Assembly: GCA_030159075.1 (NCBI GenBank)
Contig: BROG01000564.1
Location: 418,001-482,000, forward strand
Length of the DNA: 64,000 bases
Source of the DNA: Atrina japonica
Lineage: Eukaryota; Mollusca; Bivalvia; Pterioida; Pinnidae
Direction of reading: 5' to 3'
The notes beneath the pieces were generated by a model that made no database searches, was not told the origin of the DNA, and saw only the letters and a list, made by a program, of their open reading frames with translations. Below, piece after piece: positions 430-63,915 of this stretch (within the stretch, counting starts at the first letter, position 1; each line of letters opens with the position of its first letter). Position numbers and translations under genes: made by a program.

Positions 430-3335
430 TTCTTTTTCTCTATACATTATAATTTTCAAAATTATAGAGGACAAAACTGTCAAAAACATGAAAAATCCTC
501 TTAAAGGGGAAATAACTCTCATAATGGTCAACCTGAAAATTTCGGCCTTATTGGCTTTATTGTAGATGTTTGCGTGTTGAATATTTTTGCTTCTTTAACT
601 TTCTCTCTATCTATTATACTTTTCAAGATAATGTGAAAACATAAAAAAAAACACGAAAAATCCACTTAAAAGGGGAAGTAACTCCCTTAAGGGGTCGATC
701 TGACAATTTTGGCCCTTTGACTTTTTTGTAGATCTTTGCATGCTGAACATCTTTGCTGCTTTCACTTTCTCTCTATCTATTATACTTTTCAAGATAATGT
801 CAAAAACATCCAAACACATGGAAAATCTACTTAAAAGGGGAAAAACTCCAATAAGGGACAGCCTGGCAATTTCAATCCTATTGACGTTTTTGTAGATCTT
901 TGCATACTGAACATTTTTGTTTCTTTCACTTTCTCTCTATTATACTTTTCAAGATAATAGGACAAAACTGTCAAAAAAAAAAAAACATGAAAAATCCACT
1001 TAAAGGGAAATAACTCCCATTAGGGTCAACCTGACAATTTAGTTCCAATAACTTTTTCGTAGATCTTTGCATACTGAACATTTTTGCTTCTTTCTCTTTC
1101 TGTCTATCCATAATACTTTTCAAGACAATAGGACAAAACTGTCAAAAACATGAAAAATCCACTGAAATGGAAAGTAATTCCCATAAGAGTCGACCTGACA
1201 ATTTTGGCCCTTTGACTTTTTGTACATTTTTGCGTGCTGAACATTTTTACTTATTTCACTTTCTTTCTATCTATTATACTTTTCAAGATAATGTCAAAAA
1301 ACATCCAAAAACATGAAAAATCCGCTTAAAAGGCGAAAAAACAACTCCCATTTGGAGCAACCTGACAATTTCAGCCCTATTGACTTTTTGTAGATCTTCT
1401 TTCACTTTCACTTTCTCTTTATCCTTTATACTTTTCAAAGTGATATGACAAAACTGTCAAAAACATGAAAAATCCTCTTAAAGGGGAAATAACTTCCATA
1501 AGGGTCAACCTGAAAATTTCGGCCTTATTGGCTTTATTGTAGATGTTTGCGTGTTGAACATTTTTGCTTCTTTAACTTTCTCTCTATCTATTATACTTTT
1601 CAAGATAATGTGAAAACATCCAAAAACACGAAAAAGCCACTTAAAAGGGGAAATAACTCCCATCAGGGGCAACTTGACAATTTCGGCCCTATTGACTTTT
1701 TGTAGATCTTTGCATGCTGAACATATGTGCTTCTTTCACTTCCTCTCTATCTATTATACTATTCAAGATAATGTCAAAAAACATCCAAAAACATGAAAAA
1801 TCTTCTTAAAAGGGGAAAAAACTCCAATAAGGGACAGCCTGGCAATTTCAATCCTATTGACGTTTTTGTAGATCTTTGCATACTGAACATTTTTGTTTCT
1901 TTCACTTTCTCTCTATTATACTTTTCAAGATAATAGTACAAAACTGTCAATAAACATGAAAAATCCACTAAAAGGGGAAATAACTCCCATAAGGGTCAAC
2001 CTGACAATTTAATTCCTGTAATTTTTTCATAGATCTTTGCATACTGAACATTTTTGCTTCTTTCTCTTTCTGTCTATCTATTATACTTTTCAAGACAACA
2101 ATACAAAACTGTCAAAAACATGAAAAATCCACTTAAATAGAAAGTAATTCCCATAAGAGTCGAACTGACAATTTCGGCCCTTAAACTTTTTGTACATCTT
2201 TGTGCGCTGAACATTTTTACTACTTTCACTTTCTCTCTATCTATTATACTTTTCATGATAACATCCAAAAACACGAAAAATCCGCTTAAAAGGGGAAATA
2301 ACTCCCATCAGGGGCAACTTGACAATTTCGGCCCTATTGACTTTTTGTAGATCTTTGCATGCTGAACATATGTGCTTCTTTCACTTCCTCTCTATCTATT
2401 ATACTATTCAAGATAATGTCAAAAAACATCCAAAAACATGAAAAATCTTCTTAAAAGGGGAAAAAACTCCAATAAGGGACAGCCTGGCAATTTCAATCCT
2501 ATTGACGTTTTTGTAGATCTTTGCATACTGAACATTTTTGTTTCTTTCACTTTCTCTCTATTATACTTTTCAAGATAATAGTACAAAACTGTCAATAAAC
2601 ATGAAAAATCCACTAAAAGGGGAAATAACTCCCATAAGGGTCAACCTGACAATTTAATTCCTGTAATTTTTTCGTAGATCTTTGCATACTGAACATTTTT
2701 GCTTCTTTCTCTTTCTGTCTATCTATTATACTTTTCAAGACAATAGGACAAAACTGTCAAAAACATGAAAAATCCACTTAAATAGAAAGTAATTCCCATA
2801 AGAGTCGAACTGACAATTTCGGCCCTTAAACTTTTTGTACATCTTTGTGCGCTGAACATTTTTACTACTTTCACTTTCTCTCTATCTATTATACTTTTCA
2901 TGATAATGTCAAAAAACATCCCAAAACATGAAAAATCCGCTTAAAAGGCGAAAAAACAACTCCCATTTGGAGCAACCTGACAATTTCAGCCCTATTGACT
3001 TTTTGTAGATCTTCTTTCACTTTCACTTTCTCTTTATCCTTTATACTTTTCAAAGTGATATGACAAAACTGTCAAAAACATGAAAAATCCACTTAAAAGG
3101 GTAAAAACTCACATAAGGGTCAACCTGACAATTTCTTGTATTATTGATTTTTTGTAGATCTTTGCATGCTGAACATTTTGCTTCTTTCTCATTTACTCTA
3201 CCTATTATACTTTTCAATATAAAATAAAAAAAAGATCCAAAAACAAAAAAAATCACAAAAAGGGGAAATAACTCCCATAAGGGTCGACCCGACAATTTCA
3301 ACCAAAATGAAATACTTGTAGATTTATGCAAGCCT
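430..3335. repeat. ~160-bp tandem satellite, about 18 units
   Basis: A phrase close to ACATGAAAAATCCACTTAAA recurs at about 487, 652, 817, 987, 1148, 1312, 1466, 1627, 1792, 1957, 2118, 2272, 2437, 2601, 2763, 2928, 3079 and 3247, giving a period of about 150-170 bp. Each unit also carries a TTTGTAGATCTTTGCATGCTGAACAT-type segment and a CTCTCTATCTATTATACTTTTCAAGATAAT-type segment. Units diverge by substitutions and short indels. Two stretches (about 1627-2272 and 2272-2917) are almost identical over 645 bp. Short minus-strand frames inside the array are by-products of the repeat and not genes. Confidence 0.9.
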
Positions 3336-5679: not shown

Positions 5680-8600
5680 TTACGGAACTCCCATGTTGTC
5701 AAGCTCACGGCTTTCTTGGCAAGTAGCGCAAGGACCGCAACAGCACCGGATCAAGCAATCATTGCAGATAGATCCCTGTAATACATAAAATAATAATAGT
5801 AGTAATGATAATGGTGATGATGATGTTGATGGTAATGACTAGAACCACCCACCCGTTTTGCAAAAAAAAATACATTTTGGAAAAAAAATCAAATTACATT
5901 CAAATTGGGAAAAAATCAAAGAAATGTTGTTCAGTACCTTCATATGTTTAGCACCAACATATATATGAAGTGGTTTTTTTTAGCTATTTTGAGTTGAATT
6001 TTTCAAACTGGGCTGTAATCTTGACCTTTTATCTGGAGTTTCCTCAGCTATTTCTGAAAATCTTCAATACTAAAACATATGCTTAACATGAACGTTCTAT
6101 ACTTTTCGACTAATTATGAGATGGAATTTTAAAATTAAGCTGTGGCGTAGGCATTTGTTCTGTTATAACACGAAACACAGAAATATTTCAGCATATTTCC
6201 CACAAACCGTCAACTAAAAATACATGTATATATGAAAATTTTAGTTGTTGAGCTATTTGAGTTGTAATTTTCAAATTGGGCTGAGACCTCGACCTATGAT
6301 CTGAAGTGTATTCTGCATATTTCCAAAAAATCTTCATTACTAAGACATATATGAAAGTTCTATACTTTTAAGCTATTTTGAGCTGAAATTTTCAAATTAA
6401 ACCGTGACCTTGACCTATGACCTGATGAACTTGAATCTACATATAAATATAAACATATAAACACATTTTCCACAATTTATTTACACTAACATGTATAATT
6501 ATGTAATTTCTATAGTTTTTTACCTACTTCCAGTTGAAACTTTTATTCAATGAACTTGACATAAATTAAAATCTTATCATATTAGAGATATTAAGGTTTA
6601 AAATTTCTATTACTCTGTCAAATGATGAATTTCCTCATACACATGTGTAAAATAAAAGTGCTTAGTTTTAAAGAAATTCTTATATTTATCTGATTTTGAA
6701 CATACGAAATTGAACCCCTTTTTCAGGGGATAAAGAGATCAAATTTGAAACCAATTTGCAGAACAACATACTTTAGCCTTTCAAAATATTCACACATTAA
6801 ATCTACTGTCAGTGGTTATGAAGGAATTAATAGTACAGCATTGACAATGAAAAAACGGACAATAAAAACCTGTCTGTAGTCTTGGAAGTGTTATAAATGC
6901 TGATGAGTGAAATCAGTTTAGTTGCTTTACTCTACAGAAGATACAAAATTTATTTGAAGAAAAAAAACAAGAAAACGTATCATACTTGTGCTCAGAACAA
7001 AGATAGGTTCTCATGACATGCTGAGGGCAAGGCATGTTAAAGGTAGGCATGGCATGTTAAAGGTAGGCAAGGCAAGTCACAGAAAGTCGGTAAACATGTT
7101 AAAGGTAAGCATGGCATGTTAAAGGTAGGCATGGCATGTTAAAGGTAGGCAAGGCATGTTAAAGGTAGGCAAGGCAAGTCACAGAAAGTCGGTAAACATG
7201 TTAAAGGTAAGCATGGCATGTTAAAGGTAGGCATGGCATGTTAAAGGTAGGCAAGGCATGTTAAAGGTAGGCAAGTCACAGAAAGTCGGTAAACATGTTA
7301 AAGGTAAGCATGGCATGTTAAAGGTAGGCATGGCATGTTAAAGGTAGGCAAGGCAAGTCACAGAAAGTCGGTAAACATGTTAAAGGTAAGCATGGGATGT
7401 TAAAGGTAGGCATGGCATGTTAAATGTAGGCAAGGCAAGTCACAGAAAGTCGGTAAACATGTTAAAGGTAAGCATGGGATGTCAAAATTAGGCATGGCAT
7501 GTTAAAGAAGCTCGATATAGCATGTGAAAAAATGTTGTTGACAATGTAAGTGAAGGTCAGCAAACTTTAAAGAAGTTAAGCATGACATGTTAAAAAGGTA
7601 GACGATGCATATGAAAGAAGGTGGGAAAGGGATGTTCAAGAAAGTTGGCATAACATGTTAGTAAGGTAGACAATGTACATTAAAGAAGTTCGGCATGACA
7701 TTTTAAAGAAGGTAAGAAATGCATGTTAAAGGAGGTTGGCAAGGGATGTTAACGAAGGTTGGCATGACAATTTAAAGACGGTAGGAAATGCATGTTAAAG
7801 GAGGTTGGCAAGGGATGTTAAAGAAGGTTGGAATGACATTTTAAAGAAGGTAGGAAATGCATATTAAAGGAGGTTGGCAAGGAATGTTAACGAAGGTTGG
7901 CATGACAATTTAAAGACGGTAGGAAATGCATGTTAAAGGAGGTTGGCAAGGGATGTTAAAGAAGGTTGGAATGACATTTTAAAGAAGGTAGGAAATGCAT
8001 GTTAAAGGAGGTTGGCAAGGGATGTTAAAGAAGGTTGGCATGGCATTTTAAAGAGTGTAGGCATGTCAAGTGAAAAAGGTAAGCAATGCATGTTTTAAGA
8101 ACCCTGTTATGAATGATAAAATGTCTGTATTAAAGAAAAAATAATAATCTAAATGATCTGACTGGTAAAAAACATATGACTTATCAATATTTCTTTCTTG
8201 AATAAGTGTTCTTATATCAGAGAACAATATTACATACACGAATGCCGCCAATAGTGCGCATCCTCGTCCTCAATATGATGTCAGATCCTGGGACACAACA
8301 TGGAGTACACGCACACTCTCCCATCCTTGAAGCTATCTTACAAATAGCCAACGGGTAGCAGAAAAAGGTAAACAAACCTGAAAATTAATATAAATGCATG
8401 AATATTCATAACTGAACCATTTGTAAATAATAATGATGATTACTGCAAACAGGATCCACTGTCAAATTAACGAAATATTGACTTTAACCCTCTCAACTCT
8501 TTAGGCCATAACTAACTGGTCTAAAAATAGAAAAGAGCATACCATCTAGTTATATAGGGGTGAAGGGGTTAAAAGCCATATCCCATATCCTTGAGACTTA

Positions 8601-19410: not shown

Positions 19411-19619
19411 ATATAAAAATCTCAGATACCAAAGTATAAATCAATAGGATGTCCAGGACATAGATACAAATCCGGTAAAAATGGACAAACACGGACCTCT
19501 GGAAACCAAGAGGTGGGATCAGGTGCCATGGAGGAGTAAGCATCCCCTGTCGACCGGTCACACCCGCCGTGAGTCCACAGTCAAGTCCAATGAAACACGT
19601 GAGGAGTGTATCCTCGTCA
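19411..19619 (-). repeat. Penelope-type tail repeat, copy 1 (209 bp)
   Basis: Matches 19808-20016 over 209 bp with a single difference noticed (ccggtaaaa versus ccgataaaa). The reverse complement encodes a stretch beginning [20 protein letters not shown] that also follows the reverse-transcriptase stop at 29.7 kb. The two direct copies are 188 bp apart, as in the pseudo-LTR arrangement of Penelope-like elements. Confidence 0.85.
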
Positions 19620-19807
19620 TCAAACAATCTCTGCGAGTCTGTGCTCCCGATAGACTTCACAGAAGGACACCTTTTTATACTGGGCGCCGTGTCATCCAGT
19701 ATGCAATTTTTTGGTACTTCTTTATCCATTAAATGTGTATGTACCGAGTGACAAGTATCCTCGGGGACAATATGTCCACCAGCAGTGATACATACTCGGT
19801 GGTAAAA
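19620..19807 (-). other. 188-bp spacer between the two tail repeats
   Basis: A minus-strand frame here (MDKEVPKNC...TDSQRLF) runs in frame into the downstream tail, giving a 115-codon ORF (19382-19729). Near its right side are 'taccgagtgac' and 'catactcggtgg', a small inverted pair. It probably represents the end of another family member upstream of a second tail. Function unknown. Confidence 0.4.
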
Positions 19808-20016
19808 ATATAAAAATCTCAGATACCAAAGTATAAATCAATAGGATGTCCAGGACATAGATACAAATCCGATAAAAATGGACAAACACGGACCTCTGGA
19901 AACCAAGAGGTGGGATCAGGTGCCATGGAGGAGTAAGCATCCCCTGTCGACCGGTCACACCCGCCGTGAGTCCACAGTCAAGTCCAATGAAACACGTGAG
20001 GAGTGTATCCTCGTCA
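19808..20016 (-). repeat. Penelope-type tail repeat, copy 2 (209 bp)
   Basis: Near-identical to copy 1. It is followed directly, in the minus direction's upstream side (20017-20178), by the C-terminal end of the reverse-transcriptase ORF, matching the ORF-to-tail order at 29.6-29.97 kb. Confidence 0.85.
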
Positions 20017-20178: not shown

Positions 20179-21349
20179 GTGTCTTCAGTGATCCTTGTTC
20201 CATGTCCGAGGTAATGGTTATCTCAATCCTAGTAGTAACTACTTTACTATTGGGGTAGGGAAGCTCTTTCATGGACTTGGTCAACCCTAAATATATAATG
20301 TCCGTTGACGGTCAATAACAAACCCAATTACTAATAGAATTCTGCCTCTGTAGTTGTAGCTTATGTTCAGTTTAAAATTGAAAGCAGAAAATGAGAGCGC
20401 TGGGAGATCTGGTTTTAATAAGTTTGGCTGTAACGCAGAACGTAACAATGTAGATTTACGTTGACTAACATAATATAGCATGTTGATTTATAAGGACCTC
20501 ACAAGCATGAAGACAGTTGATTCCAGAGGAAGCTTACGAGAGAATATCGATCATTCATGATAGCAGATTCATTTAGGAGAACATCCATAAAACGTTGTGT
20601 TAAACAACAAACAAGTAATGACATTCTGAAGAAAGTTAAAATGTGGTTAATGTTTAGAATATTATTGATTTTAATTCTACAGAACGTCAACGATAGAATG
20701 ATTAATGTAAACGACCAATGTGCACAGCTGCTGCACAGAATTTTTTTTCCAATGATCCATTGCATTTATACTCGATGCTTTTCAAAAAATGAAAAACAAT
20801 CCTTATATTTATATATATTACAATTTTCTGTGAATCTGTAGTCAGCTGGTTACGAAATCCATTCTATGTATATGGCTTTGTGTTGTTGTTTTTCATGTGA
20901 CGTAACAGCTAAACATCTCTGTCCGAAAATACTAAATTAAGTTTATTTTTCTTATTTTCATATCATTTTGAAAGAAATTAGTGATATGGAAAATTTTGAA
21001 TAATTGTCAGATTTGTTTTGAGGTTATTTTAAATAATTCGACTGCTTAGTACCGGAAGACTAAATGCGTCAGAAGAGAATTGAAAATGCAAATGGCCGCG
21101 CCCATGGCCATGCTGTATAATGTATTTACAACAAATTTGTGTTTGAATTCTGATATATCGTAGATGGAATATACCATAGAAAGTTTGAGTGTGACTTACG
21201 AGAAGGGAGACAGCTAATATTCATTCATGACAACTGAAAGTAGCCATTTTATTTGACATTTTTTACCAATCAGCTGGGAACCATGATGACTGATTCGTAC
21301 GTAATTAACTTCCGTAAGTATTCACTTGGCCTGATTTCGTCAAACATAT
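20179..21349. other. Non-coding flank left of the TIR element
   Basis: Short opposing frames at 20499-20841 overlap each other and show no domain. No supported gene. Confidence 0.45.
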
Positions 21350-21742
21350 TAGTCCGGGAGCTAGAAGGGTCAACCGTGCACCCCCCACACAAACCTCCGA
21401 ACCAATATTTTTCTGAAGCCTCATGACCCCCTGATCACGAAAATGAATGTTAACATTGCGTAAGTTGGGACGAACTTCCGGTTGTGACGTCATCAATATG
21501 GCCGCCCTAGTGAAATTTACCCAAAATGTGAAAAAACTCATAAAATCGTCATGTGTTGACCAAAGTTAACAAATGAGGTATCAAAATGACTGTAATGGAA
21601 TAACAAACATATCTATCAACAAAAGAAAAACTACTATAAAAAGATTTATTGCTTAAAAAATGAATTTATATCGATTTTGAGGTCAAAATTGAACATTTTC
21701 ACAAAATAATTGGCATTATTTTTTAGGGTCAAATTTCTTCCA
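21350..21742 (+). repeat. Left terminal inverted repeat
   Basis: Inverted match to 26898-27283. Contains the palindrome TGACGTCA (CRE-type, about 21486) immediately beside 'tcaatatggccgcc'. The pairing extends inward through 'gaatttatatcgattttgaggtcaaaatt' and 'cacaaaataattggcat'. Confidence 0.9.
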
Positions 21743-22090
21743 TGCCTGAGAGAGGTTTTTTGAACCCCATTCAATCAACATAAAACACAGATTCATGCCA
21801 ATTTTCAGGAGCGGTCAAACACAACTTCATGAAGACGGACGCCATCATAAAACCTAAAGGAAATACAGTCTTAGCTTTCTTGTTTCATTTGGTTAGAAAA
21901 GCAGTCTATTATATATCTGTTCTAAATATTGCATTTTTGTATGTTACAGATCAAGCATATAGTGATAGGTTCTAATACATACAACGATAATGATGCAAAG
22001 TTCCTCTGATACCCAGGATCCCCCAAAAGATGATGGCCCGCCGCCTCAAAGAGAAGGTGTGGTGAAAATTGTAAAGCATCAACGTCCGGT

Positions 22091-23404
22091 ATGAAACCAA
22101 GATGTGTCATCCATATTCAGGGATTAAAATGTGGACAACTGCAGTTATTCACGAGCATGAAAGATCGCAACAAAGCATTGGACAAAATCAAAGTACGATC
22201 TCTTAGACTTTGCCAACCAGTCGGTTCTATACATAGAATGCAACAGGTGTGTGACCTCATTCCCGAAACTTATACAGACTCTGATGGATATCATCGTGAA
22301 TGTTATCAGAGGTTCCCCATGAACCTTAATCGCCTTAAGGTTCCTCCAGACACGTCGGAAGCAACATGTTCATCTAGAACAAGTCGGCGATCTTCAAATG
22401 ACAGTGATACCATTATCTTCAAGCCCAATTGTATATTCTGTAATTCCGAAGGGCGCAAGAAAATGAAGGTGAAGGGTAGCTGGACAAGTGAAGGAACCTC
22501 TAAGTTTGAGTTTGATGGTTGGAAACGAGTTCTAGGAGTAGCAGAGAAGAAATCCGATGAACAACTCTTGACTAGAATAAGAGGACATGATTTGTTTGCA
22601 TGCGAGGCGCAATTTCACAAGAGCTGTAGAGCCAAGTACATAACAGACCCAAAGCAGTGGAGAAGTACTGGTGACGAGAAGAGGACACACCAGGAAAAGC
22701 TTGAACTGGCACATAGAACATCGTATCACAATGTGTGTGAGAAGATTAACAAAGATGTGATATGCGACAAAAAGATTGTCACAATGTGTGAGCTTCTTCG
22801 GGTCTATATTTCGAGTCTGCAAGATACGGAGTTCGCCAATCCTAACTATCGCAGTGAGAAACTGAAGGTCAAGCTGGCAAAGGATGTCAACTATTGTGGA
22901 AAATTATCATTCTGCCAACTTGATAAGCAGACAAAGTTTACCCCATGCATTGTATACAGCTCTGACATTGATGTAAACCGTGCTGTCAAGAGTGCATATG
23001 CACTAGGTTCCACTGACATGATTAAGGATGTCGCCACTCACCTACACCAATTGATTCTGCGTAGCTTTGAACAATCGACAGAACTGAAATGGCCACCAAC
23101 ATCAACAGACTTAGAAAACAGTGAGGAGATACTCCCACTGCAGCTGAAGAAGTTCTTAAGTTATGTGATCACTGGGACACCAACTGCTGACACGTCACGA
23201 GCCAACAGGCTTGTACTTTCTATTGGCCAAGACATATGCAGGGCCGCTACCAATGAAGAATGTAAATTACCAAAGCATGTGCTTATCTGTATGACAATGC
23301 GACATCTGTTCAGAAGCAAACAACTGATAACCTTATTGAACAGAATGGGACACTCAGAGAGTTACTCCTTCTTGAACTTGAGACAGCTATTGCTCAGGCT
23401 GTAG
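22091..23404 (+). pseudogene. Segment 1: two tandem Cys/His modules and linker (437 codons)
   Basis: Module 1 (about residues 5-75) has CVIHIQGLKCG followed by GYHRECYQRF. Module 2 (about 115-180) has NCIFCNSEGRKK, FDGWKRVLGV and FACEAQFHKSCRAKY. The repeated C-x2-C ... H-x3-C pattern suggests two zinc-binding, probably DNA-binding, units. Residues 200-420 are helical and Lys-rich (KKFLSYVITGTP, SIGQDICRAATNE, CMTMRHLFRSKQLI). The last ~12 residues are out of frame: the true continuation lies one frame over (LLELETAIAQAVEE), locating a frameshift near 23360. Confidence 0.8.
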
Positions 23405-23990
23405 AAGAAACATCAAGTTTTCTGTCCACCCAAATTGTTCGTGATCCTGATGCTCCATCGGTGTTCCATTCAGAATTTGACAACTTTGATCAGCTCTTGA
23501 ACGATCTGACAGGCATGGGGTCTATTCACACTGCTCATGGTATTATGATGCAGGACATCGAAGGAAACCCAGAGCAACAGGAGGGTACTCGTCCTGAAAT
23601 CCCGGCCGTCAGCAGAAGTGGAGCGCGTTCTCTGAAAACAGATCAAGTCGGGAATCTTCCTGAATGCTATGTGACACAACGTAAGAGTCCATCCCTCACA
23701 ATCCAACAGTTGACATGCCCTTGAGGCGAAGAAGCCCTAAAACGCGCCATGAGACGCAATTTTGTCTGGATTCTCATTCGCATGATTCGTACAGCCTCAC
23801 AGGACGTACCTGGTTGGTCAGGCTTCACATCCGTAACTGGTAGGCCACCAACAAATCTCACCACCATCGACTATTACCCAGTCATCACCCAACCCATCAC
23901 CGATTATAAGACCGTGCAAGAATGTCTGAGATATGCTGAAGAGAGGCAACACATGAAGTAAACCAGCAGTATGTCATAACAACCTTCGAC
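23405..23990 (+). pseudogene. Segment 2: linker carrying FDNFD and PGWSGF motifs
   Basis: In frame +1 relative to segment 1: QIVRDPDAPSVFHSEFDNFD and GSIHTAHGIMMQDIEG up to a TGA at 23722. The same frame then continues (NFVWILIRMIRTASQDVPGW, YPVITQPITDYKTVQECL) to about 23945, where another shift restores the frame of segment 3. The residue missing at the TGA cannot be determined. Confidence 0.75.
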
Positions 23991-25358
23991 TTGGGAGTCT
24001 GCATGAAGGCATACCCATTGCTTTGGAACAACCCTAAACGGTATGAGAAGCACATTGTTTTAATTGGTACCTTCCACCTCGTGTGTGCTTATTTGAAGAT
24101 GGTGGGGAAGAAGATGGATGGCTCTGGTTTATCTGACATCCTACTTGAAGCAGGGCTGATTGCCTCGGGTTCATTGCAAGGCGTGATATCCGGAAAGCAC
24201 TATGACAGGGCAATGCACTGCCATAAGCCCATGCTGGAGTGCTTGGAACGGTTGTTATTGGAACAATACATGGCTCACCAAGATGAACTGGAACTGCTCT
24301 CTTCCATCCCAGCGGACTCGATGAAGAAGTTGGATGATTTGTTACAATCACTCACAGAAACCAAATTGGACGCAGCATTAGATGACGATGCATTCAGTAA
24401 CTACATTCAGGGTTACCTGCAGTATAGAGTGGAGGTCAGTGAAGGCAGTCGGGGGAAAACTGCCCAACTTTGGGCTTCCTACATAAATCATATATGGCTA
24501 GTACTCTCTCTCGTACAGGCAGTGAAGCACAATGACTTCCTTGCATATGCACACTGTTTACATCTCATGACAGACATATTTTTTGCATTCGGTGGTCAGA
24601 AGTACGCCCGATATCTCACATACCTCTCCATCTTCCTGGCTAACATTGAGGTATCTCATCCCGGAGCAACTGATTTCATCAAGCGGGGAGCCATGAGTGT
24701 CGCCCGTTCCTTCATACCCGGAAACCGCTGTGCCGTCGACAACACTATGGAGGAAACCTTTATGAGACATGCCAAATCTCATGGTGGGGGTGGTTTTGGT
24801 GTTTCAGGGTTTCTCAGCAACCATGATGCATACCAAAGATGGGTGCGAACAACACACGCGAGATCCCAGTATGTCAACACGACAATGAACATAGCTGACA
24901 TGCTAACAGCTAACAGCCAAAGTGGAACAATGCATCGTGATATACGACCCGCGGAGATCCTGAAAAGTGAGAAATGCGTACGAAAGGCAAAGGAGGCAGT
25001 TGAAAGCTTCATCAATCCATTTATAGTTGGCGACCAAGAGAAACTTATCAGTCTTTCATCTGGAGCTGCAGCCACTGAGATTATAGCAACTGATGTTCTG
25101 GGCGCAGAAAAGTTAGGAAAAGAGGCACAGAAAGCTTTCATAAAAGACCGGCTGGAGAAGAATGAAAACTTCTTTGAACCAATAAAGCGAATGAATCTGA
25201 GAACGCTTGGTGACATGAACAAGAAGATGAAAGTAACAACGGCAAACAACAAAGTAGTCCAATATAAGCAACAAGGAAATATTGCCTTCCAACTATTTGT
25301 GAAATGCCAAAGCCAGGGCTTGCAGTTGGACATGAAGGAGCTGATGACGTACCGCTGA
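23991..25358 (+). pseudogene. Segment 3: central domain, possible transposase core
   Basis: True frame begins upstream at about 23946 (HEVNQQYVITTFDLGVCMKA). Landmarks: TFDLGVCMKA; IVLIGTFHLVCAYLKMVG; MDGSGLSDILLEAGLIASGS; GKHYDRAMHCHKPMLECL; GGQKYARYLTYLSIFLANIE; VDNTMEETFMRHAKSHGGGG. The last corresponds to the family's 'D..xEQ..K..GG' motif (from memory). An Asp in TFDL, the His in GTFH and the Asp/Glu pair in VDNTMEETF are candidates for a catalytic set, but I cannot show an RNase-H fold. Lys/Glu-rich helices follow. Ends in a frameshift near 25340. Confidence 0.75.
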
Positions 25359-25940
25359 CCCCTGTCCCATACAGCATCGGAACAGCAGATGGATTTCTGG
25401 CAAAGACAGACAAATCGAAATCTTTCCAGTATCTGACAAAAGAATGTGAGGATGCACCCGGTTCCATCGGCTGAGTCAGCACTTGTGGTCTATGATGGTA
25501 ATGCCTACTTCTACTACCTCAAGGAGATACCAACGAATTTCAGCTTGATCTGCAACAAGATTTTTGGCATGATGTCAGCGACAACAGATGCGGTGTTCAG
25601 TACAGATATGTATACTCCCAATTCTGTCAAATCCATGGAACGTGAGAGAAGGGGCTGTAGTGAGAAGCTCATTGTAAAGTGACCAAGCACAAAGAAACCT
25701 CCTGATTGGAAGCAGTTCCTGACAAATGATGACAACAAGACACAATTCATCAATCTCCTCTGCAAGACGTGGAGTAATCATTCATATGCCAATAAGCTCC
25801 TTGGAAGAAAAGTCATCATCATATGTGAAGGAGCTGCATACCAGCTGACGTCTGAAGATGGGAAAAGCACAGCGAAACTGGAGATCGAAACTCTACGCTC
25901 GTCCCAAGAAGAAACTGATTCCAGAGTAGTTCTGTACTGC
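25359..25940 (+). pseudogene. Segment 4: start of the PIN/FEN-like region
   Basis: Frame fragments TPVPYSIGTADGFLAKTDKS, SALVVYDGNAYFYYLKEIP, then TGA at 25680 (GGA or similar expected) and PDWKQFLTNDDNKTQFINLL, GRKVIIICEGAAYQLTSEDG. The YDGNA word is reminiscent of the first Asp strand (D-G) of PIN/XPG nucleases. Confidence 0.65.
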
Positions 25941-26755
25941 ATGTATGGGAAGGACAAGGGATATGAGTACATCCGGATCAAAAGTCCAGACAGCGATGTT
26001 CTCTTCTTCATCCTACTGCACTACGCCCTCACATTGCCAAATATAGTTATTCTATTTGACACTGGCACTGGAAATAAGCAGCGATTGATCAACATCACCG
26101 AACTGGCAGAGGGCTATACACAGAACCACTGCACAGCACTCATGTGTCTCCATGCATACACCAGATGTGACACTACCAGCGCATTCAAAGGAATAGGAAA
26201 AATCAAGCCACTGAAAACTCTCCAGAAAACTCCAAAGTTTGCTGCTGTACTCTGCAGGTTGGGGGAAACTTGGGACATAACCTCGTTGATGAATTGGAGG
26301 AATTCACGTGTGCCATATATGGTCGTGCTAGAGTGCGCAAAGTTAATGAGCTGCGATACATCCGCATACAGGAGCTGTGTACCAAGGAAGACCAACCCCA
26401 CCCTTCAAAGAATGTGGACCTGGGATCACTACCACCATGCAGACGTAGTCTGGAGCAACAGGTAAGACGTGTCAACTATCAGGTTGGAATCTGGAAGAGG
26501 GCCCACATTGCTAAACCAGATATTCCAGATGTGAAAGTTGACCATGGATGGGAGGTCAAGGATGGAAAGCTGGAGCCACTGTGGTACAAAGGAGATGTTC
26601 TGCCACCGGAACTCATCAGCATCGCTGGGGAACAACTGGAGTCTGACGACGATGTGGATTCAGATGACTCGGAAACTGTATACCAGCTGACAGATATGTT
26701 AGACCAGTTTAGCGTTCAAAGCAGTGGTGAACGCATAGACAGTGATCTGGCTTGA
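25941..26755 (+). pseudogene. Segment 5: FEN1/XPG (PIN)-like nuclease domain and acidic tail
   Basis: Just before and in this stretch: EETDSRVVLYCMYG, then IRIKSPDSDVLFFILLHYAL, ILFDTGTGNKQRLINI, and LHAYTRCDTTSAFKGIGKIK. This spacing resembles the EAEA ... T(E)DxDxL ... GSDY..GI.GIGPK layout of FEN1-type nucleases: acidic cluster, two-Asp strand, helix-turn-helix with Asp. A frameshift near 26275 moves the frame. The rest reads LGHNLVDELEEFTCAIYG, NYQVGIWKRAHI, WEVKDGKLEPLWYKGDVLP and an acidic C-terminus to a stop at 26753-26755. Homology is inferred by motif order; no structure or search was run. Confidence 0.7.
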
Positions 26756-26897
26756 CAATATGTACCCTCGAATGACATGAACTCATGTTACATGTGTTTG
26801 CTAGAGAAACGGCATATAAACAAAATAGCGTGTAGACATTCAACTTAATAGTGGAAATAAAACATTTCTGAATCATGACTAAGGTTGTTTGCTTTCT

Positions 26898-27283
26898 GGA
26901 AAAGATTTGACCAAAATTATGACAATTATTTTGTGAAAAATGGAAATTTTGACCTAAAAATCGACATAAATTCATTTTTGTTGGAATGAATCTATCAAAA
27001 GTAGTTTATATTGTTAACAGATCTGTTTGTTATTCTATTGCGGTCATTTTGATACCCCATTTGATAAATTTGTTCGACAAATAACGATTTTATGAGTTTT
27101 AACACGTTTGGGGTAAATTTCACTATGGCGGCCATCTTGATGACGTCATAACCGGAAGTTCGTCCCAAGTTACGCAATGTTAACATTTATTTTCGTGATC
27201 AGGATGTCATGGGGCTTCAGAAAAATATTGGTTCGGAGGTTTGTGGGAGGGGTGCACGGTGGACCCTTATAGCTCCCGGCCTA
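26898..27283 (-). repeat. Right terminal inverted repeat
   Basis: Inverted match to the left arm. Carries 'atggcggccatcttgatgacgtca' in two adjoining motifs: CAAGATGGC (YY1-like) on the minus strand and TGACGTCA. The same pair is slightly altered in the left arm. Confidence 0.9.
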
Positions 27284-28149
27284 TATGTGTAATTATGACA
27301 CCACAATCGAATGACGCCAGAAAACGCAAATGAAGAGCCACATGTCAGACATTTGGCGAAAGGTCAATTGTTTCTGACAGGAATCTCGAGTGAAGGCAAA
27401 CAAATCGACCTGTTTATCAGAGATGCTTGACAAAGTTGCACTCGGCCTAACACTCTTTTTTCTGTTGTAATTAAAAAGCAAACCTTCATTTCTCTGATCT
27501 GTGGTTCTGGTCATAACATGACCTAGATATATCGCGATATGGGCCTATAGGCTGTACCATGTGCTACAGATGTAGTCTTGTGTTTCCAATTTCTTTCTGT
27601 GGTTTTTATTTGTTTTGTGGTAGGCCTAATGTATGGCTTTTAAGATTAAATATATAAGAAATAAATATATGATAAATGATATTCTATTCTTTGTTTATTC
27701 GTTCATGTATTCTTACGCTGAAAAGTAAAGCGGTTAATACTCAGGTCAGGCGACTGCAAATACCGAATATACAATATATCGCTCTATATACTTGCAATGA
27801 AGAGAATTGCAGTCGGTATGTAAATATTAATCTTTTGACTATCATACGGATGATTCTACTCACTTATGAAAAGCTGCACGGTAAAATGTTTTATTCCTCA
27901 CTGGATACCCTCTTATGTATAGTGACAAGTAGGAATGATTATTGTAGTCAGTGTAATTTTAATGTTATGCTTTATTTCTTAAAATCTAAACTCGTCCAAG
28001 TTAAAAAAAGGATTCACAAGACTCCATCCCGCCATGTTGTATGGACTTTACTATAGGAGCATCATACAATAATGTGTGGATGCACCTGTGTATGTTAACT
28101 TCGTAATCGTATATTTCCAAAAAGCATTAATTTCGACTGTGCTTAGAGA
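27284..28149. other. Non-coding stretch right of the TIR element
   Basis: A 126-codon plus frame (27676-28056) has no recognisable domain, an AT-rich codon mix and no splice context. I treat it as chance, though an orphan small gene cannot be excluded. Confidence 0.45.
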
Positions 28150-36227: not shown

Positions 36228-39200
36228 TTACTTGCAGCAACCACCTTCTGACTGCTGATTCTGTTCACTGTTCAATTTAACACCTCCTGGTTTAGGTTGT
36301 GCTGGACCACCACCTTCATTTTTGGGTAACTTCTTGGCTGCAATTATTAGAACAGGAAAGGTAAAATTTCACTGGTATATTTTTATAGGAACATAAGCAA
36401 ATTTTGATTACATTCATCTTAAATGATATGAACATAAGCTTCACAAATAAATATCGAAATAGACTCAATTATTTTAGAGCTTGGTTGAAATTCAACTACC
36501 GTAACTCACAAACCCCTGTAGCCACATTTCAATACACCAAAATGAATACAATGTACATAGAATAGTCTACTGTCATATTTCAGAAGTAAGCAAATTAAAT
36601 TACACTTACACTTATTGAAGAATTTTGATTTCATAAAGTCTTGAATCCTGACAGTGGATTTTACCATTCTTTGAAATGGTTGAGACCAAATGAGGCCTTA
36701 GGAGTTGATGAACCCAATTTTTATATCGATATAATACCTTATCACATGAAAACAAGAGGCCAAAAGAGCATTATCACACTTTACTAACTGGAAGCCCTTG
36801 ACCAAAAGGTCATACAATTCTTTTTCTTATACTTGATCTAAAGATGTTACCTAAAAATATCATGTTATATCAGATGCCCCAATGGTTGGTTTAATAATTT
36901 CAAAAGTTCACATCAAATGTATGCCAAATACCTGTGGATGCTTGAAATTTGCAAGTAGTCACAAAAAACATAATTGTGCATGTTGAAAACCCATGACAAT
37001 TTTTGTGTGAAAATCTTGCATGTCATGAGAACTGAAATTCAAATAACACAGCATGACACATTATTTAAACAGAAAAGAACCAAAGAAAAATTGAAACTTT
37101 GTTAAGACGCACAGTATCATCCTATAGACCGTTTTCTAGTTGCATTATCAGCTTTGGTTCCAGCAGGGCTCAAACTATAGATGCAAGACTTAGAGACCAG
37201 ATGGAAAATGCTAACTCGACCAGAGAGGCCACACTTATTTTTACAATTAACATTGAAAGTGCCAGGAACATGTATCCAAATCAAAATGACACGATCTCTG
37301 TAGTAACATCATCATTAACATTTTTGAGAATTTACTTGACATTAATTAAATCGACAAGACACGAAAATAATTTATCTATCATCTTAAATTTGTGAATTAT
37401 CTTAATCTTACCTATTGCCAAAAATATTTCATTCACATTCAGGGCAGTTTTGGCTGAAGTTTCCATAAACAACAAGCTGTTTTCTTCTGCATAAGCCTGT
37501 GCTTCCTAAAAAATGATTATTAGAATAATTATCAAAATGCAAGAATTTTTATCTTATAAATGTTTGCTATTTATTGTATTTTTATTGAATGTGATGAACT
37601 GGCTTAACTAACATAGTATCAGACAATGTAAAGCATCTGAAACAGAATCATCCACAACTGATTGTTTTATATCACAATTATCTAAAGAGTAACATAGATC
37701 ATCAACCCCGAAAAACAAATGACTCCTCTGTAAATCAGCGAGTTAGACCAGTTCAAATGTGTCTTTAGGGGAGAGAGGGTTAATTTACAAAAGATGTGAG
37801 TTTCAGCAAAGGTGAATGTGATAGCCACATGTTCTCTGTTGACCAAAGATATAAATGAAAAGTTGTATTTCATATGTAAGTACATTGTAGCTGAAAAAAA
37901 TTATCAAACTGGAATTTAACATTAACAAATGCTTTTTGCATGCAAACATAACTCAGGTAAATGCAAATTAAATATCACAATTTTGTTTGTTCTCAACTCA
38001 CCTCATTTTCTACCATTCGTTTCTGCGACAAATCACATTTATTTCCTGCAAGGGCTATAACTATATTTGGACTTGCTTGTCGCTGCAGCTCTTTAACCCA
38101 ATTTTTTGCTCTTCCAAATGTATCCTAGAATTGAGTATGTAGAATCATCATAATGAGAAACTTGGTGTTATACATACAAATCTTTGTTATACAGAAATAA
38201 TTGTAGTTCTAGGAAAGGGGATTATCTCTAAAAAAAAATCCATAATTTTTTGTTAACTAAAATGCCGCTTTATCCAAACTACTAAATGACTAATTCAACA
38301 TCCCTGTTAATGGATCATACTTCCAAATATCTAACAAAATTAGTATCATCTAGGCAATCACAATGTTGCTTATTGGTAGCAGGCTTGTCTGTAACTATTA
38401 AAAAGTTGGCTATGGGTAGCCAGTTTGTCTTTGACTATTACAGTTGACTATTAGTAGTGTGTCTGTGGCTACTACAGCTAATTATGGGTAGTGTGTCTGA
38501 ACAATTACCTATGGGTAGCAGGGTTGTCTGTGACTATTACAGTTAACTATGGGTAGCATATCTGTGACTATCTCAAAGTTATCTATGGGTAGGAGACTTG
38601 TCTGTGACTATTACAGTTGACTATTAATAGTGTGTCTGTGGCTACTACAGCTGATTATGGGTAGTGTGTCTGAACAATTACCTATGGGTAGCAGGGTTGT
38701 CTGTCACTATTAAGGTTGACTATTAGTAGCCTGTCTGTGACTATTACAGTTGAATATGTTTTGTATGTCTGACTATTAAGTAGGTCTATCTGTGACTATT
38801 ACAGTTGACCATGGGTAGCAGGCTTGTCTGTAACTATTAAAAAGTTGACTATGGGTAGTGTCTGTGACTATTACAATTGACTATGGCTAGCAGGCATGCC
38901 TGTGACTATTACATTAACTATGGGTAGGTCTGTCTGTGACTATTACAGTTGACCATGGGTAGCAGGCTTGTCTATGACTATTACAGTTGATATATGGGTA
39001 GCAGGCTTGCTTGTGACTACTGCAGTTAACTGTGGGTAGCAGACTTGTGGTTTGGCAGTTTAAGATGTACCATTTTACAACTGGGAAATTTCCTTGATCA
39101 ATCAGCTTATGTTATAAGCCAATATGACTAAAGGTGAGAGGCTTTGTAATTTATTGCATGAATCGCTGTAACCAATCAACCACAGAGACAGCCAATCACA

Positions 39201-58147: not shown

Positions 58148-58552
58148 ACGACACATATGTCGTTATAGCACTGAACTGGAAAACGACACATATGTTGCTT
58201 TGTCACTGTACCGGAAAACGACACATATGTTGCTTTGGCACTGTACCGGAAAACTACACATGTTGCTTTGTCACTGTACCGGAAAACTACATATGTTGCT
58301 TTGTCACTGTACCGGAAAACTACACATATGTTGCTTTGGTACTGTACCGGAAAACGACACATGTTGCTTTGTCACTGTACCGGAAAACTACACATGTTGC
58401 TTTGTCACTGTACCGGAAAACGACACACATGTCGCTTTGACGCTAAGAGGGTTAATGCCACGGCGACATATACGTCCTTGCAGAGTTCGATGCCGTGATG
58501 ACATATAAGTCGTCTGGTGGTTCAGTGCCAAAGCGACATGTATGTCGTTTTA
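58148..58552. repeat. 35-bp minisatellite (TTGCTTTGTCACTGTACCGG...)
   Basis: About 11 units, eight well conserved (58148-58440) and three diverged (58450-58552: 'gatgccgtgatgacatataagtcg' type). The unit contains CACTGTACCGGAAAAC(T/G)ACACATATG. It encodes frames in all phases, which are by-products. Confidence 0.9.
58439..58455 (-). other. Candidate piggyBac terminus at a TTAA site
   Basis: Plus strand 'gacgctaagagggTTAA' reads TTAACCCTCTTAGCGTC on the minus strand, the expected form (TTAA followed by CCCT) for the 5' end of a minus-oriented piggyBac element. It sits 470 bp upstream of the copy-1 N-terminal frame. The matching far end was not found. Confidence 0.4.
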
Positions 58553-63403: not shown

Positions 63404-63915
63404 GGGGAGTATTACTTAGCCGTGTATACTGAAAATTAAAATGGGTTGATCTCTATTTCTTTTGTTTAAACAACATATAACAAATTGTATTAATAAAAGA
63501 AAGCTGTCATACTACTTTTACACACATTCTTATTTCACCATTGCTCTTTATATTGTGCATTGACACAAATTTTGGGAACAACAAGAGGATGGCGTAATAC
63601 TTAGCCGTATATACTGAAATCTGATATGGATAGATATTTATTTCTTTTGTTTAAACAACAAATATTAACTTGTATTAATAAAAGAAACTTGTTAAACTAG
63701 TTTTGCACACATTCTTATTTCACCATTGCACTTTATATTGTGTATTGATACAAATTTGGGGGAAAAGCAAGGGGATTTGGGTACAACTAAGCGGTATTTC
63801 CTGAAATCTAATATGGATAAATATTTCTTTCTTTTTATTATACAACATATTTTATGTTGTATTAATGAAGGAAATCTGTTAAACTAGTTTTGCACATATA
63901 TTTTTTGTTATATCT
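63404..63915. repeat. ~190-bp tandem repeat, about 2.7 units
   Basis: 'tacttagccgt.tatactgaaa' begins units at about 63412, 63598 and 63786. 'cacacattcttatttcaccattgc' and 'attgtgtattgatacaaatt' recur within. Non-coding, AT-rich. Confidence 0.85.

Follow-up and report, generated by a model that had tools for sequence, protein, structure and literature searches.

A probable AcademX-type DNA transposon in Atrina japonica with a FEN1-like nuclease and a candidate DDE core

Academ and Kolobok transposons with added enzymes

The target-site duplications (TSDs) of AcademX transposons are 3 or 4 bp long and those of AcademH are 9 or 10 bp, a difference that the available text of the describing paper links to the nuclease encoded by AcademX and the helicase encoded by AcademH (PMC10045372). 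Academ elements have been amplified in bivalves, for which the accessible portion of another paper gives 100 curated consensuses with a mean length of 5,565 bp (PMC10294476). A DDD/E transposase together with an accessory nuclease is also described, in the excerpted account, for KolobokE, KolobokP and KolobokD (PMC9587614).

The element considered here lies in a 64,000-nucleotide stretch of Atrina japonica contig BROG01000564.1 (positions 418,001 to 482,000 of the forward strand; hereafter the window, in whose numbering coordinates are given). It is very probably an AcademX-type DNA transposon in degenerate form, an assignment that rests on its anatomy and on AcademX as described in print. The original prediction of a transposon pairing zinc-binding modules with a nuclease is largely right; such a group does exist, but the part of the literature at hand already describes it as AcademX (PMC10045372). 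An AcademX-like make-up is in print there, and the element would add a member.

The element and its broken gene

The element occupies positions 21350-27283 (5,934 bp), bounded by terminal inverted repeats (TIRs) and flanked on each side by TAT (21347..21349 on the left, 27284..27286 on the right). The left TIR (21350..21722, plus strand) starts TAGTCCGGGAGC and the right TIR (26913..27283, minus strand), reverse-complemented, starts TAGGCCGGGAGC. The inverted arms comprise an outer pair of 279 nt, 89% matched (21350-21628/27005-27283), and an inner pair of 100 nt, 80% matched (21623-21722/26913-27012). The TIRs bound seven copies in the genome, and the pairing of the repeats is therefore far beyond chance. 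Inverted repeats of ~390 bp enclosing a single broken plus-strand gene, richer in GC than its surroundings, had been predicted at 21350..27283, and both parts of that description were borne out: the coordinates agree, the repeats align end to end over ~370 bp, and the gene is interrupted by frame changes and stops. GC content in 500-bp windows is 0.42-0.49 inside the gene against 0.30-0.38 in those centred just outside the element, with the exception of an outside patch at 19500-19999 that reaches 0.47.

On the plus strand, the gene extends over roughly 22049 to 26752 and falls into six frame segments, two of which contain an in-frame stop; aligned to the intact homologue P0001, it gives four matched stretches and four internal stops. 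Segment 1 (22049..23374) carries one Cys/His module at 22103-22315 and a second at 22430-22639, and also the stretch that leads to the transposase core. The candidate first catalytic Asp lies in segment 2 (23368..23943; one in-frame stop), in the motif FDNFD (within 23476-23499). Segment 3 (23940..25355) supplies the candidate second Asp in TFDL (within 23979-24002) and the candidate Glu in MEE (within 24744-24767). Segment 3 matches Pfam DUF6589 weakly, at 22.1 bits under a cut-off of 27. Segment 4 (25352..25465) is a linker leading to the nuclease, segment 5 (25470..26252; one in-frame stop) is the FEN1/EXO1-type nuclease, in which the catalytic-type motifs YDGN, STDMY..K..R, EETD, PDSD and RCD are all present, and segment 6 (26264..26752) is the C-terminal region. 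As it stands, the window copy cannot encode the whole protein.

Other repeats in the window include an exact 120-bp direct repeat just outside the element (19500-19619 and 19897-20016, starts 397 bp apart), which may be longer, position 19500 being the edge of the searched stretch. There is also a tandem array of ~17.7 copies of a 163-bp unit at 432-3300, and further arrays with units of 20-185 bp lie at 7026-8094, 38388-39048, 58148-58439 and 63409-63896.

Copies, target-site duplications and an occupied repeat

Sixteen places in the 832-Mb assembly match the 121 bp at the outer end of the left repeat, and they amount to seven full-length copies, the window copy and six elsewhere in the genome, and two single ends. 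The full-length copies measure 5.8-6.2 kb, with substitution differences of 0.47-6.86% between pairs. A search for intact copies with the same TIRs had been proposed; six more full-length copies were found, but the reading frame is broken in 7/7. Private to the window copy are 10 substitutions in ungapped columns and a few longer indels, but no one-base indels, and it would appear to be young. Copy L001 has 89 private one-base indels, and its transversions outnumber transitions; this load probably reflects a low-quality stretch of the assembly rather than age.

A protein search of the same genome finds related sequence on at least 19 further contigs (a lower bound, 41 of 229 candidates having been scored), mostly 37-44% identical to homologue P0044. 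Sixteen of these 19 places were examined as loci L009-L024: ten have both ends, beginning TAG[A/G]CC..GAGC, and six are without one end in the stretch examined. Related elements among them (e.g. L014:7353-8566 and L013:1-1834) have, at one end, subterminal arrays built of ~350-380-bp units in inverted orientation relative to the other end; the two loci scanned hold 3.2 and 5.1 copies of the unit.

The seven copies are flanked by the exact 3-bp duplications TAT, ATA, AAA, TAT, ATA, CTA and TGA. With the ten related elements added, an exact 3-bp TSD is present in 17/17 complete elements and a 4-bp extension in none of the 17; for comparison, 3-mers taken at shifted positions in these flanks agree in 2.0% of cases (1,080 of 55,233). 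A constant TSD length had been proposed as a check on the original prediction, as had empty sites, and both were obtained, the latter for sister copy L002. The claim that the encoded proteins are transposon-borne holds as well: TIRs flanked by a constant 3-bp duplication enclose the seven full-length copies and ten of 16 related loci.

The joined flanks of six copies were used as queries, L007 being left out with part of its left repeat deleted. All 40 places that span the junction, together with one partial match, belong to L002, whose joined flanks match them at 86-91% identity (the best 40 of 7,814 candidates scored). The five empty sites that were read all hold a single AAA where L002 has the element and a duplicated AAA. 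The single AAA at these unoccupied matches means that L002 has inserted into another repeat, and comparison with the unoccupied sites thereby fixes both the ends of L002 and its duplication. The repeat itself is a separate one, represented by L029-L033 and 35 more places and matched over ~240 bp at 86-91%, and L002 sits in one of its copies.

The encoded protein and its candidate DDE core

A query with the read-through protein finds at least 85 homologues among 8,000 candidates scored. Among these the closest full-length protein, P0001, is 78% identical across 1,533 residues, and intact homologues are single proteins of about 1,530 residues. Named homologues are few and include those of Solemya velum, Pinctada imbricata, the fish Coilia grayii and one bacterial symbiont bin. 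Conservation was read from alignment A1, which holds 45 of the 85 homologues.

In P0001 numbering, the two Cys/His modules consist of C5, H8, C55, H69 and C72, and of C115, C118, H177 and C180; these residues are conserved in 31-37 of the 37 rows that include the N-terminus. In the central region, the Asp of the DNxD motif is present in 42/45 rows and that of xFDL in 44/45, the remaining rows being gaps, and the Glu of IEE is present in 45/45. The candidate D-D-E positions in P0001 are 464, 634 and 888. DNxD, xFDL and IEE are taken here as a candidate DDE catalytic set, with D52, D217 and E471 in the numbering of A1, in which the invariant E471 is chosen as the Glu, with E270 (41/45) as the alternative. 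With such a set in place, the central domain is, on residue conservation, most likely the transposase. No classical DDE transposase had been recognised in the original prediction; this stands in so far as no Pfam DDE family is matched in the six homologues scanned, in which DUF6589 is seen below cut-off, but a candidate set is present. NCBIfam gives no match for three proteins, and a literature search for DUF6589 found no papers.

The C-terminal nuclease

Nucleases of the FEN1/XPG family have seven acidic metal-binding residues in a set order, with a Lys and an Arg near the second Asp, and the AcademX nuclease is of the XPG type. In the C-terminal domain, A1 columns D718, D754, K762, R769, D858, D882, D884 and D941 are invariant (45/45), and column E856 is Glu in 44/45 rows and Asp in one. 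The order of these residues is that of FEN1 D34, D86, K93, R100, E158/E160, D179, D181 and D233, and the window copy keeps every one of the corresponding motifs.

A profile of the whole alignment, searched against the PDB, finds Exonuclease 1 alone (E 0.051). Profile A2, built from 12 nuclease segments chosen from the 45, gives five matches to distinct PDB sequences, all Exonuclease 1 (best E 9.5e-6), and the alignment covers the D-K-R and GCD stretches. The predicted pairing of Cys/His modules with a FEN1-like nuclease is thus upheld, by the conserved residues and by the Exonuclease 1 profile match. Pfam XPG models match none of the 12 segments taken singly; chance-level Pfam matches include Flavi_NS4A (E 0.0014, below cut-off) in one of the 12 and 5_3_exonuc_N (E 0.044), also in one. 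When the window nuclease piece alone is searched against the PDB, the match to Mec-8 (E 0.81) is discarded as chance. A genome search with the XPG_I model lists five places, none inside these elements, and the nuclease profile matches four genomic XPG_I loci weakly (best 10.5 bits, E 0.0027, among 195 short frames), from which nothing is drawn.

Built from 44 of the 45 rows, the transposase-region and nuclease-region trees have a tip-distance correlation of 0.976 and hold 21 of 41 splits in common. Among well-supported splits (22 and 21 in the two trees), 13 are common and two well-supported pairs conflict. The close correlation of the trees therefore favours transposase and nuclease regions that have mostly travelled together, with which rare exchange would be compatible.

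Assignment and alternatives

The strongest competitor of the AcademX assignment, itself unlikely, is that the element represents a distinct, undescribed superfamily, whose FEN1-like nuclease was gained independently of AcademX and whose TSD length is alike by chance. The weak matches to known profiles speak for it, DUF6589 reaching 22.1 bits, below cut-off, and NCBIfam giving none for the three proteins. However, a nuclease and TSDs of 3-4 bp are the very features printed for AcademX, in the portion of the source at hand (PMC10045372); Academ is abundant in bivalves and of similar mean length there, according to the available text (PMC10294476); and the bivalves Solemya velum and Pinctada imbricata are among the few named matches.

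It is highly improbable that the FEN1-like nuclease alone serves as the catalytic transposase and that the central region is structural, a reading for which the near-invariance of all the nuclease catalytic-type residues can be cited. The D-D-E set is equally well conserved, down to homologues ~21% identical. Enzymes of the FEN1 family act by hydrolysing DNA and are not known to join ends, and DDE strand transfer typically leaves a short duplication of constant length; both points count against this reading. That a host gene or fragment lies by chance between unrelated inverted repeats, for which the broken reading frame is the one point found, is rejected as having next to no likelihood, given seven copies at different places with both ends in common and TSDs, and the empty sites of L002.

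Proposed mechanism

For an AcademX-type element of this make-up, the Cys/His modules would bind the TIRs or the target DNA, and the central domain (DNxD ... FDL ... IEE) would cut and join with a 3-base stagger. The FEN1-like nuclease may process a DNA flap, a branch or the second strand during excision or integration. We infer this division of labour among the domains; the ends, the duplication, the empty sites of L002 and the residue conservation are observations. A bolder and rather doubtful extension is that the nuclease acts as an obligatory second active site, which would cut the second strand or remove a flap in a two-nuclease route and so help to set the 3-bp duplication. Such a role would be in keeping with nuclease and transposase regions that are mostly inherited together.

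Exact ends, a TSD length and empty sites now connect a set of mostly unnamed multicopy proteins with a mobile-element lineage. The residue-level predictions bear on the reason for a nuclease or a helicase in Academ lineages, and on whether that enzyme sets the length of the TSD.

Comparison with known systems

The Kolobok lineages are work-alikes, in which a transposase is likewise joined by an added nuclease, but their nucleases are lambda-exonuclease-like, His-Me finger or DEDDh enzymes and not of the FEN1/EXO1 type, as the excerpted account has it (PMC9587614). To the FEN1, EXO1 and XPG nucleases the domain is related by the EXO1 profile match (E 9.5e-6) and by a colinear D, D, K, R, E, D, D, D, D; it differs from them in being very divergent, in its C-terminal position on a transposase and in that single sequences are unmatched by Pfam XPG models. 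AcademH is of the same superfamily, Academ, but it has, in the available description, a helicase and a TSD of 9-10 bp (PMC10045372), whereas the TSD here is 3 bp and no helicase match appears in the six homologues scanned. Set against AcademX by its partial printed description alone, the element shows no difference that was found, and its likeness to AcademX extends to the TIRs, the 3-bp TSD within the range of 3-4 bp, the encoded nuclease, a length of 5-6 kb and relatives in bivalves, the window copy measuring 5,934 bp beside the mean of 5,565 bp stated for bivalve Academ elements in the accessible portion of PMC10294476.
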